The notes beneath the pieces are model-generated. The model had not been told where the DNA came from. It saw nothing but the letters and a program-made list of their open reading frames with translations, and did no database searches. This document shows, in pieces, positions 30,836 to 55,823 of a stretch of DNA of 64,000 nucleotides. The DNA comes from Marinomonas sp. TW1. Its GTDB lineage: Bacteria > Pseudomonadota > Gammaproteobacteria > Pseudomonadales > Marinomonadaceae. The position numbers and the translations under genes were made by a program. The DNA is taken from NCBI RefSeq assembly GCF_001625355.1, contig NZ_JSEE01000004.1, positions 1 through 64,000 on the forward strand, read 5' to 3'. Position 1 is the first letter of the stretch. Each line of letters opens with the position of its first letter.

Positions 30836-32473
30836 CTAAAGTTTAAAGGCTGACATGACGTGTTGTGTTTGTTCTGACGTTTGCGCCAGAGACTCACTGG
30901 TTTGGTTGTTCTGCTGAACTTGCAAACTCGCCTGCGCTGATAATTCAACGACCTTTTCATTTAACTCATTGAGTCTTTGTACAACATCACTTTGCAAGGT
31001 GACACTTTGAAGTACCGAGTTACTCGCGCGATTAATGCCTTCCGCTGAACTGGCAATGTCTTCTAGATATTGCGCCGTCATACTCATTTCTTGAGTGGTT
31101 TTTTGCGATTGCTGATGACTTTCTGTAATTTTGCTTTCGGCTTCTTTGGCGCCACTTTGTAACTTGTTAATCATGGCTTGAATCTCATCCGTTGAGGCTT
31201 GAGTTCGGCTGGCCAAGCCGCGAACTTCATCCGCTACCACGGCAAATCCTCGTCCTTGCTCACCAGCTCGAGCGGCCTCAATCGCCGCATTCAATGCCAG
31301 CAGGTTAGTTTGTTCAGCGATTTCACTGATGACATCCAACACTGTGCCAATGGTTTGGGATTGTTCGGCAAGCTGAATGACTGTGTTTAACCCAGACTCC
31401 AACTCACTGGATAACTTATCTAGAGAGTCAACCGTTTGCTGTATTGAATCTTGCCCTGTTCGGGTTTTTTCGACGGTCATTTGAGCGGAATCTAACGTCG
31501 TTTGCGTGCTTTCAATCACTTCGTCTTTAAAGCTATCGACTTCTGCAATGGCTTGCGTCATTTCCGTGAATTTGCCTTCTCTTTCTTGGCTAATTTCTCT
31601 GGTTTTAGCCGACGCAATCTTCAGCTCTTTGCTTTTAGATTCCACTTCTTGGTTAAGCAACACGGCTTTATTCAAGGTATCGCTAAGTCTTTTTACAAAC
31701 GTATTGTAGGACATTGCGATCTTGGTTAACTGGTCGTTTCCAGACTCAGGGAGACGAGCCGTTAAATCACCAGAACCGTGGGAAATGTCTTCTAGAGCCG
31801 TTTTAATCTGACGAATTGGCGTGAGGATAGACCTTAGAATAATGACGGAAATAAACAGAGCCAATAGAATAATCGCTGCACTGATGCTGCCCAATTTTAT
31901 GATTTCTTGTTTGAACTGTTGATCAACATCGTCTAAATAGATACCAGAGCCAATAATCCAACCCCATGGGGCAAATCCTTGCACGTAGGAAATTTTTTCA
32001 ACGGGTTGTTCGCTGCCAGGCTTTGGCCATAGGTAATCAACAAACCCTGCTTGTTGTGCTTTGACCACTTTAACAAATTCTGAGAACAGCTTTTTGCCGT
32101 TAGGATCTTCAAGATTGGCTAAATTTTTTCCATCTAGGCTCGGTTTAACAGAATGCATGATCATGACAGCGTTATAATCATTAATCCAAAAATATTCAGC
32201 ACCGGCATATCGAATGCCTTTAATGGTGTCCATCGCATACTGTTGAGCCTGATCTCGGCTCAGTTCGCCAGATTGTTCGAGCGCCTGAAAGTGGGTCAAC
32301 ACTCCTGTGGCTGTCTCAACAACATGTTTCGTTTGCGCGTACTTTTCATTAAGTAGTGAGGTCTTGTTCTCACTGAGTGAAAGCGAAATTACTAAAATCA
32401 AACCGATGGAAAAAAAAGTAACGAGACTTATTAACCTGTGCTTAATGGGGATTTTTCTTAACGTGTTTATCAT
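30836..32473 (-). CDS. Methyl-accepting chemotaxis protein (sCache_2 type)
   Basis: A 545-residue receptor. The N-terminal helix is ~12-30, followed by a single Cache domain with the signature [17 protein letters not shown], then [17 protein letters not shown] and [17 protein letters not shown]. The second helix is ~193-213, then HAMP, and signalling tip [20 protein letters not shown] with [15 protein letters not shown]. sCache_2 domains often bind small carboxylates, but the ligand is not evident. It is divergent from phoX and so may share the phosphate-responsive spacer. Confidence 0.92.
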
Positions 32474-32783
32474 AGCTGTGTCCTCTCGGGAATTTGCGTC
32501 ATTCTTATTATGGTTTATAAGTTTTTTTTGCTTCCTACTTACAAGTTTTATCCTTTTTTATTAAACAATTCAATAATGCCATTTAACTGTCATTTCTGTG
32601 TAACTTTTTGCCTATAAATTAATTGCCAACTTCTCTAAAGCAGGGGAGGTTAGAAAAAGCAATTATGGGAAGGTTGTTTTTCTAATATCTCAAACAACAA
32701 GTCAGAGAGCCATCTAAAGACGTTAAAGGTGGTTTTTTTGATTTATTTAGTCAGTAAGAAATCACTATTGATAGGGCAGTATT
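32474..32783. other. Divergent promoter region of chemotaxis receptor and phoX
   Basis: No gene in this spacer. It contains the Pho-box-like array at 32576-32604 with a -10 candidate at 32613-32618. The rest is AT-rich without clear structure. Confidence 0.6.
32576..32618 (+). promoter_or_regulatory. Predicted PhoB-dependent promoter of phoX
   Basis: Seven-base units at 11-bp steps: ATGCCAT (32576), CTGTCAT (32587, perfect) and GTGTAAC (32598). TATAAA follows at 32613, about eight bases after the last unit, the spacing known for Pho boxes that replace the -35. The leader to the phoX start is about 160 bases. Confidence 0.6.
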
Positions 32784-40875: not shown

Positions 40876-40902
40876 TGAATGAGTATTAGACAGGTTATTA
40901 AG

Positions 40903-41859
40903 ATGAAGCGGTTAGTGTGTTGTCTGGCATTATTGCCAAGTGTGTTGATGGCTCAGGGGGCGGAGCCAGTGCCGGTCGAGACCGAGGAAGAAAGTGAGTC
41001 TTATTTTCAGGCCGAAGAACCAGAAGTCCCTGAATCCATTAGTCAGCGTGCAAAAGAGGCCAACGGGTTATTTCAACAACGGGAAATTCGTGAGAGTGCC
41101 ACGGTGAATAATCCGTTTGTGATTACACCTCATCGACCAAATTACTTCTTACCTATTGCCTATACCTCCAACCCCAATGATCGAGCTTTTTTAGGGGACA
41201 AAAGCGATTCTGAAAGCCTACAGAGTGTGGAGTTTAAATTTCAATTAAGTGTGAAATTTCCTGTGGCTTATGGGGTCGTTGGGCGTAATAGTAGTCTTTG
41301 GTTTGCTTATACTCAGCAAGCGTATTGGCAAGCTTATAATAGCCATATTTCGGCACCATTTCGTGATACTAATCACGAGCCAGAAGCCTTCATTGTGGTC
41401 AAACCAAAAGAAGGTTGGTTCGGCATAAAGCCCAGTTACATAACCTACGGGTTGAATCATCAATCCAATGGTCAATCTGGTGATTTGTCGCGCTCTTGGA
41501 ACCGCTTTTACATGGATTTTTTGTTTGAAACAGAAAATACCGCTTTTTCCATTAAACCTTGGTACCGCTTTCCAGAAAGTTCTGATGTAGACGATAATCC
41601 CGATATTGAAGATTATTATGGCTATGGTGAATTTAGCATGATTCATGTGATTGACGATTACAGTATCGATGTGATGATTCGCAATAATTTAGACATGTCG
41701 GACAACCGCGGTGCCATTCAAGTGGGCTTTAACTTCCCGTTATGGGGTAAAACTCGCGGTTACATCCAGTATTTTAACGGCTATGGGCAGTCGCTGCTGG
41801 ACTACAATCATCAAACCCAGTCGTTGGGAATTGGTGTGATGTTAAGCAACTGGCTTTAG
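40903..41859 (+). CDS. pldA: Outer membrane phospholipase A1 (OMPLA)
   Basis: A 318-residue outer membrane beta-barrel enzyme. Signal peptide KRLVCCLALLPSVLMAQG; an acidic ~60-residue periplasmic lead; then the barrel. The active-site segment is NHQSNGQSGDLSRSWNRFY (catalytic His and Ser near residues 185 and 187, Asn in the triad, and the SRSWNR signature). It hydrolyses phospholipids that reach the outer leaflet, keeping outer membrane asymmetry. The start was moved to 40903 to put the signal peptide at the N-terminus; the upstream 40879 start is possible. Confidence 0.88.
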   Translation: MKRLVCCLALLPSVLMAQGAEPVPVETEEESESYFQAEEPEVPESISQRAKEANGLFQQREIRESATVNNPFVITPHRPNYFLPIAYTSNPNDRAFLGDKSDSESLQSVEFKFQLSVKFPVAYGVVGRNSSLWFAYTQQAYWQAYNSHISAPFRDTNHEPEAFIVVKPKEGWFGIKPSYITYGLNHQSNGQSGDLSRSWNRFYMDFLFETENTAFSIKPWYRFPESSDVDDNPDIEDYYGYGEFSMIHVIDDYSIDVMIRNNLDMSDNRGAIQVGFNFPLWGKTRGYIQYFNGYGQSLLDYNHQTQSLGIGVMLSNWL

Positions 41860-41891
41860 GTTTTCCTTATTTTTTGACGATTGACACTTTA

Positions 41892-41936
41892 TCGTCATGT
41901 AATTGTCATGCTTTTGTCATTTTGTGCTTTTAAGGT
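41892..41936 (+). promoter_or_regulatory. Tandem Pho boxes upstream of lipoprotein gene
   Basis: Three seven-base units exactly 11 bp apart: TCGTCAT (41892), TTGTCAT (41903) and TTGTCAT (41914). They are followed by TTTTAAGGT (41928-41936) as a possible -10. The register is that of PhoB dimers bound in tandem. Confidence 0.65.
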
Positions 41937-41965: not shown

Positions 41966-42532
41966 ATGAAATTAATTCCAATCGCAACCGGTTTAATGGC
42001 AATCACTCTTCTAACGGCTTGTGGCGGTGAAATGGCGAAAAAGGGTTCTGCTGATACAATGGCAGAAGCATCCGCTATGAATAACAATGATTTGTATGAA
42101 GTGCATCACGAAGGCCGTATTTACATTTTTGACGACCGCGACGTGTATGAAGATTTCTTATCTGTTGGTGAGACGTCTTTCCGTAAAGTTCGCATTGGTG
42201 CTGGCCCTAAAGGTGAAACACTGGTGTTTGGTCTAACGAGTGAAGACAAAAAGAAAATGTCTGGTATCGCATCGGTTGATATGTATGACGGCTCACTAGA
42301 GGCTTCGAAAGATTTTTACGGTGAAATGCGCACAGAAGGCCGCATTTATGTGTTCGGTTCTTTAGAAGAGATGAACACAGCACGTATCGTGGGTGAAGTA
42401 CCATTACGTTACACTGAAATCGGTGCTGGTCCTAAAGGCGAAACGGTTGTATACGCTTTAAACAGCAGCAACAAGAAAGTTCGTCCAGATGCGATGATCG
42501 CTCAGTTCCACAAAATGAACGACATGAAGTAA
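41966..42532 (+). CDS. Two-repeat lipoprotein, likely phosphate-regulated
   Basis: A 188-residue lipoprotein of unknown function. The lipobox is LLTAC (Cys about residue 19), then a short linker and two related ~55-residue units. Each has EGRIY-F followed about 25 residues later by IGAGPKGET-V (about residues 45-85 and 118-160). Start 41966 is fixed by AGGAG. It is monocistronic: its own terminator follows. The three PhoB-type units upstream suggest induction on phosphate starvation. No family name is recognised; the duplicated aromatic/glycine motif suggests ligand or surface binding. Confidence 0.75.
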   Translation: MKLIPIATGLMAITLLTACGGEMAKKGSADTMAEASAMNNNDLYEVHHEGRIYIFDDRDVYEDFLSVGETSFRKVRIGAGPKGETLVFGLTSEDKKKMSGIASVDMYDGSLEASKDFYGEMRTEGRIYVFGSLEEMNTARIVGEVPLRYTEIGAGPKGETVVYALNSSNKKVRPDAMIAQFHKMNDMK

Positions 42533-42558: not shown

Positions 42559-42592
42559 AAAATACCTCGCCATGGTGCGGGGTATTTTTTTA
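42559..42592 (+). terminator. Terminator after lipoprotein gene
   Basis: AATACCTCGC-CATG-GTGCGGGGTATT followed by TTTTTT. Confidence 0.8.
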
Positions 42593-42646: not shown

Positions 42647-42713
42647 TTGTCATCAAGTTGTCATCGAAACGCCACCTTACTGACATTTTACTGTTCTATT
42701 TTAAAGGTAAGAT
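42647..42713 (+). promoter_or_regulatory. Pho-box array upstream of PAP2-glycosyltransferase operon
   Basis: TTGTCAT (42647) and TTGTCAT (42658) are 11 bp apart. Two weaker units lie on the same 11-bp register, CTGACAT (42680) and CTGTTCT (42691). TTTTAAAGGTAAGAT follows, with a possible -10 about 42699-42713. Similar to the array at 41892. Confidence 0.6.
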
Positions 42714-42733
42714 GAAATGAGAGGTGAACACCT

Positions 42734-43249
42734 ATGAACATACTTCAGAATATTCATGCATTTGATGTACAGACTTTCTCTTGGTGTATGGCTCGAAAGC
42801 ATAGGGCAAAGCTGACTAGCATGGGACGAGCCGTTTCCTTTACGGCGGATGGACCATTGTATGCGGCATTAGCAATGGTTTTGTGGTTTACCGGTTATCA
42901 TACTCTCATGCTGATTATGCTACTTGGTTTCACCCTTGAGCGAATTTTATATCTGATTTTAAAGCGTGGCTTTAAACGCAATCGTCCAGCGGATGCCTTG
43001 GATAATTTCAACAGTTTCATTATTCCTTCTGATCAGTTCTCTTTTCCATCCGGCCATACTTCTGGTGCGTTTTTCATGGCTTACTGTTTGAGTGAGTGGT
43101 TCCCCGGTTTGAATATGGTGTTGTATTTTTGGGCGATGAACGTAGGGTTATCGCGAATTTTTTTAGGGGTGCATTTTCCTACTGATACGGTGATTGGAGC
43201 GTTACTAGGAAGTGCGTGTGCCGCCACTATGATTGGAGTGCTAGCATGA
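42734..43249 (+). CDS. PAP2-family phosphatase
   Basis: A 171-residue inner membrane phosphatase with about four to five helices. All three catalytic motifs are intact: KRGFKRNRP (about residue 76), PSGHTSG (about 105) and SRIFLGVHFPTD (about 138). Members remove phosphate from phosphatidic acid, undecaprenyl pyrophosphate or similar lipids. AGAGGTG precedes the ATG. The stop overlaps the start of the glycosyltransferase by four bases, so products act together, and PhoB-type sites lie upstream. I favour phosphatidate as substrate, giving diacylglycerol for glycosylation, as inference. Confidence 0.85.
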   Translation: MNILQNIHAFDVQTFSWCMARKHRAKLTSMGRAVSFTADGPLYAALAMVLWFTGYHTLMLIMLLGFTLERILYLILKRGFKRNRPADALDNFNSFIIPSDQFSFPSGHTSGAFFMAYCLSEWFPGLNMVLYFWAMNVGLSRIFLGVHFPTDTVIGALLGSACAATMIGVLA

Positions 43250-44346
43250 AAATTTTGTATGGTGTTCAAGGCACAGGTAATGGCCATATTACTCGCGCTC
43301 GGGCCATGGCCGCAGAAATGAATGCGGCTGGTATTCAAGTTGATTTCGTGTTTTCTGGACGCCCAGAAGCAGAGTATTTTGACATGGAAGTGTTCGGTCA
43401 TTATCGAACCTTTCAAGGGTTAAGCTTTGTTGCTCGTAATGGCAAACTGGATTTATATGCAACCTTTCATAAAGCGAATTTTTATAAACTATATCGTGAT
43501 ATTCAAACGATAGACACTCGCGGTTATGATCTGGTTATTACCGATTATGAACCCATTGTTGCGTGGGCCGCTAAACGTCAGGGCGTGCCTTGTGTCGGCT
43601 TTGGGCATCAGTATGCGTTTAAATACGATATTCCACGTTACAAGAAAAATTGGTTAGCGCAATGGATTATGTCCAATTTTGCGCCGGCGGCAACGCAGCT
43701 TGGGGCCCATTGGCATCATTTTGGTCATGATATTTTACCGCCTTTGATCCATAACCATGATGCACCTAATAATCCTCAATCGAATCAAGTCTTGGTGTAT
43801 TTACCGTTTGAGAACAGTGAAGCGGTGTTAGATTGGCTGGAAGCGGTCCCCGAGTATCATTTTAGACTGCATTGCAAAGACATTGAGCCGGGTGTGTATG
43901 GCAATGTTGAGGTGTTTCCTTTCAGTCGAGATCAATTCCAGAAGAACCTGAGTGAGTGTGAATCGGTATTGTGTAATGCGGGGTTTGAGTTGAATTCGGA
44001 AGCGCTACATTTGGGACGCCGTATTTTAGCCAAGCCAATGCAAGGGCAAATTGAGCAGCACTCTAATGCCATTGCATTAGAGTATTTGGACATTGCTAAA
44101 ACGTGTCAGGAATTGAACCCAGAGGTCATTCGAGATTGGCTTGAAACCAGTCGAGTGGTTCAGATCAGTTACCCAAATGTCGCACAGGCGGTAGTCAGTT
44201 GGTTGCAAACCAATGACGATTCCAGTTTATCGGATTTGTGTGACCATTTATGGCAACAGGTTCCTGATCTTAAAAACAGGAATTTCAAAGATAATGCATC
44301 GGCTAAAGCGCTAAAAGCTCATCCAATGAAACGTGCGACAATATAA
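43246..44346 (+). CDS. MJ1255/VC2487-type glycosyltransferase
   Basis: A 366-residue GT-B type glycosyltransferase. N-terminal ILYGVQGTGNGHITRARAMA is the acceptor-side glycine loop shared with MurG-like enzymes. The donor-side region has SECESVLCNAGFELNSEALHLGRR (about residues 245-268) with the NAGFEL-SEAL signature, and KPMQGQIEQHSNA. Start 43246 comes from the ATGA overlap with the PAP2 stop. The family is known mainly by genome context; close pairing with a PAP2 phosphatase suggests a lipid acceptor. A hairpin overlaps the stop. Confidence 0.82.
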   Translation: MKILYGVQGTGNGHITRARAMAAEMNAAGIQVDFVFSGRPEAEYFDMEVFGHYRTFQGLSFVARNGKLDLYATFHKANFYKLYRDIQTIDTRGYDLVITDYEPIVAWAAKRQGVPCVGFGHQYAFKYDIPRYKKNWLAQWIMSNFAPAATQLGAHWHHFGHDILPPLIHNHDAPNNPQSNQVLVYLPFENSEAVLDWLEAVPEYHFRLHCKDIEPGVYGNVEVFPFSRDQFQKNLSECESVLCNAGFELNSEALHLGRRILAKPMQGQIEQHSNAIALEYLDIAKTCQELNPEVIRDWLETSRVVQISYPNVAQAVVSWLQTNDDSSLSDLCDHLWQQVPDLKNRNFKDNASAKALKAHPMKRATI

Positions 44347-54385: not shown

Positions 54386-55768
54386 ATGGCAATCAGTTTA
54401 TTCGATCTTTTTAAAGTGGGAATTGGCCCCTCTAGCTCACACACTGTTGGGCCCATGGTCGCAGCGAATCAGTTTTCTCATCAGTTAAAAGAACGTGGTC
54501 TTTTAGACAAGGTAGAACGCTTAAAAGTGGATTTATATGGTTCTCTTGGAGCCACTGGTAAAGGTCATGGAACGGGTGTTGCGGTATTGATGGGGTTGGA
54601 AGGAGAGCTTCCAGAAAGCATTGATCCGAGTGGTGTGTCTGAGCGAGTAGCACAGATTGAGTCCGCTTCGATGATTCGTGTTTTAAAGGAACGCAATGTT
54701 GCTCTGAAAGTATCGCAAGATTTGATATACCATCGAATTGATCGTCTAGAGTTCCATGCTAATGGCATGGTTTTGGAAGCGTTTGATGAAAAAGGCGACA
54801 GTCTGCATCGAGCGACTTTTTACTCTGTGGGCGGTGGTTTTATTGTCGAAGAGGATGCACAAGGCAAGGTGTCTCTAGTTGAGGACACAACAGAATTGCC
54901 TCATGTTTTCCATGATGCTGAAACCTTAGTGAATTTGTGTCGAAGTACTGGTAAATCCATTGCCGAGATTATGCTAGAAAATGAACTGGCATGGCGTACG
55001 GAAGACGAAGTCAAACAAGGTATTTTATCCATTTGGTCGGTGATGAAAGAATGTGTACAGAAAGGCATTCAAAATGAAGGTATCTTACCTGGAGGCTTAA
55101 AGGTCAAGCGCCGCGCTGCCAGTTTGTATCGAGACCTGTCGAGTAAAACCCGTATGGATATGATTACCCCGTCGTTAGGAGCAATGGATTGGGTGAATTT
55201 ATATGCTTTAGCGGTAAATGAAGAAAATGCGGCGGGTGGTCGCGTTGTGACGGCGCCAACCAATGGTGCGGCTGGCATCATTCCAGCGGTGTTACACTAT
55301 TATTGGGAGTTTTGTCCGCGCTCCAATGAAGAAAACGTGATTGAGTTTTTGTTAACCGCGGCCGCGATTGGTCTGTTGTTTAAAGAAAATGCTTCTATTT
55401 CTGGTGCGGAGGTAGGTTGCCAGGGTGAAGTCGGCTCCGCCTGTGCCATGGCAGCGGCAGGGTTAGCTGCGGCAACGGGTGGCTCGCCAGAACAAATTGA
55501 AAATGCAGCAGAGATCGGTATGGAACACAACTTGGGTTTAACCTGTGACCCCATCGGTGGTCTAGTTCAAGTTCCTTGTATTGAACGAAATGCCATGGCG
55601 GCGATGAAAGCAATTAATTCCGCTTCGATGGCGTTGAGGGGAGATGGTTCGCATTATGTTTCCTTGGATAAGGTCATTCGTACCATGAGAGAAACGGGTA
55701 AGGATATGAATGATAAATATAAGGAAACCTCTCGCGGAGGTCTGGCAGTCAACGTGATTGAATGTTGA
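54386..55768 (+). CDS. sdaA: L-serine ammonia-lyase (iron-sulphur type)
   Basis: A 460-residue enzyme that deaminates L-serine to pyruvate. The beta domain starts [21 protein letters not shown]; the alpha domain has [34 protein letters not shown] and [15 protein letters not shown], which supply the Fe-S cysteines. Length matches E. coli SdaA/SdaB (454-455). Start 54386 gives the conserved N-terminus; the longer frame from 54317 adds an unrelated hydrophobic segment. Monocistronic with its own terminator. Confidence 0.93.
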
Positions 55769-55805
55769 TGACACTTTCATGGCAAAATTATGACAAGTAA
55801 CAAAA

Positions 55806-55823
55806 CTGTCATATAACTGTAGT
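55806..55823 (+). promoter_or_regulatory. Pho-box-like sequence between sdaA and its terminator
   Basis: CTGTCAT-ATAA-CTGTAGT, two seven-base units 11 bp apart, the first a perfect PhoB half-site. It stands 250 bases upstream of the PiT gene, with a terminator in between and no -10 at the expected place. Confidence 0.3.

Follow-up and report, generated by a model that had tools for sequence, protein, structure and literature searches.

We analysed a 64-kb stretch of contig NZ_JSEE01000004.1 of Marinomonas sp. TW1 (referred to here as the window), in which a Pho box precedes two overlapping genes for a PAP2 membrane phosphatase and a glycosyltransferase (GT). These genes and their upstream neighbours, all on the forward strand, are as follows:

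40879..41859, + strand: pldA, outer membrane phospholipase A (PF02253, 338.8 bits)
41881..41920, + strand: second Pho box, before the lipoprotein-like gene (score 26/28)
41966..42532, + strand: lipoprotein-like gene, a separate Pho-boxed unit, kept in 11 of the 31 Marinomonas loci examined
42647..42686, + strand: Pho box of four units in an 11-bp register (sequence, four-unit score, recurrence upstream of PAP2 in relatives)
42734..43249, + strand: PAP2 membrane phosphatase, 171 aa, candidate lipid phosphate phosphatase (phosphatidate to diacylglycerol; PF01569, motifs, fold)
43246..44346, + strand: GT of the TIGR00661 family (MJ1255/VC2487-type), 366 aa, candidate diacylglycerol glycosyltransferase (TIGR00661, GT-B fold)

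The ATG start codon of the GT gene overlaps the stop codon of the PAP2 gene (ATGA, 43246-43249). The original prediction had placed an outer membrane phospholipase gene upstream of the pair, which the PF02253 match bears out: pldA ends at 41859, 0.87 kb before PAP2, and lies upstream of PAP2-GT in 29 of the 31 examined genus loci (some genomes being counted twice). We treat it as a syntenic neighbour within the genus whose membership of the operon is only putative. The lipoprotein-like gene, under a box of its own, sits between pldA and PAP2 and is not mentioned in the original prediction; it had no matches in Pfam or NCBIfam, and by eye it has two similar halves, with GRIY...IGAGPKGET occurring twice. 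Its box was the best among four upstream regions scored in the window. A terminator-like inverted repeat was seen by eye at about 42559-42592, between this gene and the pair; it is absent from the output of the promoter scan (scanned region from 42520), which also returned no sigma-70 type promoter at the Pho box.

Repeats of the Pho type were also observed at 32577-32604, before phoX (32784), and at 55757-55823, before a gene for a PHO4-family phosphate transporter (56074), so that the window holds at least four Pho-boxed units. A gene for a Cache-domain chemoreceptor (30836-32473) is divergent from phoX and shares with it the Pho-boxed intergenic region, and its product is possibly a phosphate-related taxis receptor.

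A Pho box is a series of TGTCAT-type units that repeat every 11 bp ahead of a gene. Upstream of PAP2, two perfect units (TGTCAT at 42648 and 42659) are followed in exact 11-bp steps by two weaker ones in the same register (CGCCAC at 42670 and TGACAT at 42681), and together they score 24/28 on a four-unit Pho consensus (maximum 28, threshold 19). The exact pattern TGTCATN5TGTCAT occurs at just two sites in the window, 41904 and 42648. Loose matches (≤ 3 mismatches) number 92 in the window against 70 expected, with 1 of 100 shuffles reaching as high a count; because this is only mildly above chance, the case for the box rests on comparison. Across the whole genome, TGTCAYN5TGTCAY with ≤ 1 mismatch gave 92 matches (9 of them perfect) versus 44 for the reversed pattern.

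A box scoring ≥ 19 was found upstream of PAP2 in 45/46 Marinomonas sequences and in 66/84 sequences from the rest of the order (one genus and one order upstream, each shorter than 120 bases, are omitted from these counts), compared with 2.2% (genus) and 1.3% (order) of dinucleotide shuffles and 0.8% of 4433 random windows from the order loci. The signal was specific to a period of 11, for which z against shuffles was 38 in the genus and 46 in the order, versus 0.5-10 over both sets for periods 8-10 and 12-14; in the order set the mean score was 20.4 at period 11 against 15.2 for shuffled sequences, and 15.4-16.1 (z 1.5-7.8) at the other periods. At least one genome from 16 of the 18 families outside the genus carried the box. 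Scores were below threshold in the single upstream of family f13 (0/1) and in those of f18 (0/3), and two families were partial (6/12 upstreams in f16 and 1/4 in f44). A chance origin of the box is ruled out by this recurrence in genus and order, which lies far above the shuffle and random-window controls. The units described in the original prediction, two perfect and two weaker in one register, are thus confirmed in the sequence and across relatives, and by its box the pair would belong to the Pho regulon.

The co-occurrence survey of pair and box that the original prediction had suggested was run, and both recur across genus and order. The GT was present in 47/48 Marinomonas genomes, with PAP2 immediately upstream in all 47 loci (in one of these, L019, which was kept, the contig end falls inside PAP2). 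Elsewhere in the order draw, strong matches (E-value ≤ 1e-50) were obtained in 98 of the 280 other genomes; 97 of these were taken for locus analysis (G285 was omitted), of which 85 had PAP2 immediately upstream of the GT and 12 did not. A named collection, made up of the top 80 of at least 580 matches, was also examined. Among its 78 loci with room upstream, 69 had PAP2 before the GT and 64 of these 69 carried the box, including records from Methylococcales, Alteromonas and Cellvibrio and also from Nitrosomonas and Methyloversatilis; because this collection partly duplicates genomes of the order draw, the counts of the two sets are not additive. In a class-wide draw the GT was rare (9/369 genomes at E-value ≤ 1e-40, TW1 included), and 6 of the 8 loci other than TW1 had PAP2 together with boxes scoring 19-21. 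A search of a plasmid collection with the GT returned five distant matches and no more. The gene pair and its box are real, and extend much more widely than a view of a single window could show.

Some relatives of the GT have other surroundings. Four GT loci without PAP2 (L215, L226, L232 and L236, with a box of 23 at L226) encode proteins with a different N-terminal motif, and these GTs may do something else. In four Rheinheimera/Alishewanella loci (L272, L296, L301 and L311) the GT follows another gene, PAP2 is absent and no box lies at the GT; the upstream regions of the preceding gene score 20, 17, 15 and 17, and by eye that gene encodes a thymidine-kinase-like protein. A tandem pair of TIGR00661-like GTs without PAP2 was observed at L106:1498-3572 (genome G110). 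At L098:1404-2532 a GT lies under an adjacent Pho box (22) without PAP2, and a second box-like pair is found near position 2899 of that locus, before the next gene.

The PAP2 protein matched PF01569 with 81.2 bits (cut-off 27.2), which places it in the PAP2 superfamily. The active-site motifs, which we take to be KX6RP, PSGH and SRX5HX3D, are represented by residues K77, R84-P85, S106-G107-H108, R141, H147 and D151, all invariant in 30 sequences, and by S140, which is nearly so. The nearest folds to its structural model (pLDDT 93) were Aquifex LpxE (6ebu, Z 22.9, 28% identity), which is also the nearest solved relative by sequence, and Bacillus subtilis PgpB (5jki, Z 19.5). The protein resembles LpxE and PgpB in fold and active-site motifs; what sets it apart is its linkage with a GT and with a Pho box. 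Searches with the NCBIfam LpxE models gave no matches at E-value ≤ 0.001, and the best NCBIfam match, the SepP undecaprenyl-diphosphatase NF047884, scored 55.9 bits, well below its curated cut-off of 250. UppP/BacA is present in TW1 and in 48/48 genus genomes, and PgpA in TW1 and in 43/48. A role of PAP2 as the sole undecaprenyl or PGP phosphatase is ruled out by these separately encoded enzymes, beside which it is one candidate among others for those housekeeping steps. Although a fold does not determine a substrate, we propose that it is a lipid phosphate phosphatase that would act on phosphatidate.

The GT matched TIGR00661 with 226.1 bits (curated cut-off 195.9), which assigns it to this family, and its N-terminus passed PF13579 weakly (31 bits versus 29.7). 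Two motifs are conserved, TGxGHxxR near the N-terminus and NxGFxLxSE...QxEQxxN. The model (pLDDT 90) adopts a GT-B fold, for which the matches included YojK (Z 23.4), the yeast sterol glucosyltransferase UGT51 (Z 22.0) and MurG (Z 21.6), with 281-306 aligned residues at 12-19% identity. Non-hydrolysing UDP-GlcNAc 2-epimerases fit just as closely (3ot5, Z 22.1), and this tie leaves the reaction unsettled by fold alone. A profile of the GT searched against sequences of solved structures gave just a weak YojK match. The TW1 protein shares this fold with UGT/MurG-type GTs, UGT51 included, and is distinguished from them by its low identity and a putative acceptor. Against the Agt-like protein of L144, BLASTP gave no significant similarity (E 2.1), which sets the GT apart from Agt. 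Among open-licence PubMed Central papers, none was found on the function of MJ1255, VC2487 or TIGR00661, nor on the PAP2-GT pair. The TW1 protein is proposed to be a diacylglycerol glycosyltransferase.

The original prediction contrasted the pair with the known PlcP-Agt route of lipid remodelling and named absence of plcP from the genome as a point to check. That absence is ruled out. Among seven metallophosphatase matches in TW1, one (L054) is homologous to the protein whose gene, in family f21 (L144-L146), adjoins that of an Agt-like GT4; it is distinct from the TW1 LpxH gene (L053), no curated PlcP model matched it, and its upstream region carries a Pho box scoring 25/28. PlcP was found in 43/48 Marinomonas genomes. 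Overall, the box was present before PlcP in 62/69 loci, a count that assumes the PlcP start codon and includes six genomes twice (L143 and L147-L151, the same as L113, L126, L127, L131, L133 and L142). The other half of the contrast stands: a search with the Agt-like protein of L144 found nothing at E-value ≤ 1e-30 in TW1 or in the other 12 genus genomes searched. The implied independence from PlcP therefore fails, and with PlcP present and Agt not found, the pair appears to stand in for Agt, with a further diacylglycerol source added, rather than to form a wholly separate route.

Among 293 genomes, the GT was found in 111, PlcP in 111 and both in 71, giving an odds ratio of 6.3 (5.2 without Marinomonas), although the genomes are related and the association probabilities therefore overstate significance. 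Agt (E-value ≤ 1e-70) was found in 20 of the 293, and together with the GT in 2. No PlcP was detected in 40 of the 111 GT genomes, and 27 of the 111 PlcP genomes had neither GT nor Agt. Where GT and PlcP were both present, they lay within 7 kb of each other in at least 20 of 71 genomes, from six families (11 of the 20 in f24); this is a lower bound because distances were computed for the 34 genomes in which the two genes share a contig, and the other 37 were judged by eye (other contig or far). Marinomonas and methanotrophs are abundant in the named collection (the top 80 of at least 580 matches); of its 50 full-length loci, viewed out to 8 kb on each side, only 7 contain PlcP, and not one contains OlsF or the sugar dehydrogenase.

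Several neighbourhoods bear on how the genes may work together. In strain LSUCC0057 (L159, the same as L316), PAP2, GT and PlcP follow one another on the same strand, separated by 24 and 16 bases. In a Methylobacter locus (L289), PlcP occupies the PAP2 slot and ends just before the GT, with a box score of 23, whereas L313 and L294 show PlcP first, then PAP2 under its own box, then the GT. L150 has PlcP and PAP2 without a TIGR00661 GT; in both loci of its family, f28 (L149 and L150), PlcP was seen before PAP2 and the GT was absent from the fetched stretch. A Methyloversatilis locus (L310) holds PlcP-Agt and the PAP2-GT pair together. PAP2 and PlcP look like alternative partners of one pathway, the slot exchange coming from a single locus (L289), and their common product is likely diacylglycerol. 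Seven of the fetched neighbourhoods contain a gene of one sequence cluster, next to PlcP in six cases and next to PAP2 in the seventh; both members tested were identified as OlsF, a bifunctional synthase of ornithine lipids, with 829.8 and 829.7 bits against a cut-off of 620. In L162, where neither PAP2 nor a box was found, the GT overlaps galU, which scores 381 bits against a cut-off of 327, and it faces the gene for a nucleotide-sugar dehydrogenase adjoining PlcP (TIGR03026 over its cut-off), whose best named match was the UDP-glucose dehydrogenase TuaD, below cut-off; a similar dehydrogenase lies beside PlcP in L158, which has the pair. These neighbours weakly suggest UDP-glucose or UDP-glucuronate as the sugar donor.

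Taken with the box conservation, the association with PlcP and in some cases with OlsF or UDP-sugar enzymes makes a Pho-controlled role of the pair in lipid remodelling, as the original prediction had it, well supported at the level of sequence; a wholly separate route is the part of that prediction that did not survive. It should be borne in mind that co-regulated genes may cluster without a common pathway, and that related genomes are not independent. We consider it probable that the pair is a Pho-regulated module for diacylglycerol glycosylation, in which the GT takes the place of Agt and PAP2 is a second source of diacylglycerol. In low phosphate, PhoB would bind the four-unit box and switch on one short transcript. 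PAP2 would then dephosphorylate phosphatidate or a related lipid phosphate, releasing diacylglycerol and saving the phosphate, and the cytosolic UGT/MurG-type GT would use a UDP-sugar to attach glucose or glucuronic acid to diacylglycerol, yielding a presumably phosphorus-free glucosyl- or glucuronosyl-diacylglycerol. PlcP, under its own box elsewhere in the genome, would supply the same GT with diacylglycerol from existing phospholipids. PAP2 enzymes usually work on the periplasmic face, so diacylglycerol made there would first need to cross into the cytosolic leaflet to reach the GT; diacylglycerol flips readily between leaflets.

We weighed three other readings of the pair. If PAP2 were an LpxE-like lipid A phosphatase, the GT might put a sugar where the phosphate had been and so save outer-membrane phosphate through modification of lipid A or LPS. 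Aquifex LpxE is the nearest solved relative of PAP2 in both sequence and fold, and E. coli WaaH is reportedly a precedent for a Pho-regulated LPS glycosyltransferase. However, LpxE works at the periplasmic face, whereas the GT appears soluble and is expected to use cytosolic UDP-sugars, PAP2 matched none of the NCBIfam LpxE models at E-value ≤ 0.001, and the loci with PlcP and a nearby OlsF point to glycerolipids; we regard this reading as unlikely. Somewhat less likely again is a role in the undecaprenyl cycle, with PAP2 as a C55-PP phosphatase and the GT making a polyprenyl-linked or cell-wall glycan in phosphate stress. The MurG-like fold of the GT would suit it, as would SepP being the best NCBIfam match of PAP2, but that score is far below its cut-off, UppP/BacA is encoded in all 48 genus genomes, and the association with PlcP and OlsF would be left unexplained.

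The least probable of the three is plain phosphate scavenging, in which a Pho-regulated phosphatase would be co-transcribed by chance with a GT whose acceptor is a surface polysaccharide or some other non-lipid molecule. The window does contain other Pho-boxed scavenging genes (PhoX and the PHO4-family phosphate transporter), some members of the GT family lack PAP2 or a box, and the available portion of PMC11856585 reports a ChiS ChIP peak upstream of VC2487 of V. cholerae. Set against this, PlcP in the PAP2 slot (L289) and PlcP-PAP2 without a GT (L150) are hard to explain unless the two phosphatases share a product.

Diacylglycerol glycosylation by the pair can be compared with what has been published on PlcP. 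In the excerpts of PMC4796936, plcP neighbourhoods fall into six types; an agt homologue is the gene most often found next to plcP, and types 3 and 5 contain other putative glycosyltransferases. According to the accessible part of PMC8528852, plcP adjoins agt in P. aeruginosa, the arrangement that we found for PlcP and the Agt-like GT4 in f21 (L144-L146); the same part describes residual glucuronosyl-diacylglycerol without PlcP, i.e. another diacylglycerol supply, and leaves the glycosyltransferase for a third lipid without a name. For several type Ia methanotrophs, extracts of PMC9239053 (2022) place another putative DAG glycosyltransferase near plcP in agt's stead and liken it to a B. subtilis enzyme; the word "phosphatase" is absent from its main text. 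The Methylobacter loci L289 and L313 carry a TIGR00661 GT beside PlcP, and the methanotroph candidate, as those extracts present it, may be this GT. In common with the PlcP-Agt pathway as outlined in these portions of PMC4796936 and PMC8528852 are the Pho boxes, PlcP, a glycosyltransferase partner and the expected glycolipid product. The TW1 system differs in that its GT is TIGR00661 UGT/MurG-like and not a GT4-type Agt, in that a PAP2 phosphatase is added, and in that Agt was not found (E-value ≤ 1e-30).

In broader terms, we see about an even chance that the pair belongs to a widespread Gammaproteobacterial glycolipid route, in which the TIGR00661 GT would replace Agt, the unrelated enzymes PAP2 (from phosphatidate) and PlcP (from phospholipids) would be interchangeable as makers of diacylglycerol, and the product would be glucosyl- or glucuronosyl-diacylglycerol. 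Its anomeric linkage would probably be opposite to that made by Agt, because the UGT/MurG group is inverting and GT4 retaining. If PAP2 and PlcP are interchangeable before the GT, remodelling would be possible even in genomes without PlcP.

PlcP serves as a marker of lipid remodelling in many bacteria, and in the order draw 97 of the 111 PlcP genomes had no Agt at E-value ≤ 1e-70. Some glycolipid-making enzymes are left unnamed in the accessible parts of PMC9239053 and PMC8528852. The pair gives a concrete candidate enzyme for 70 of these 97 genomes. It also offers a testable function for the TIGR00661 glycosyltransferase family, and predicts that remodelling may occur in the 40 genomes that have the GT without a detected PlcP.
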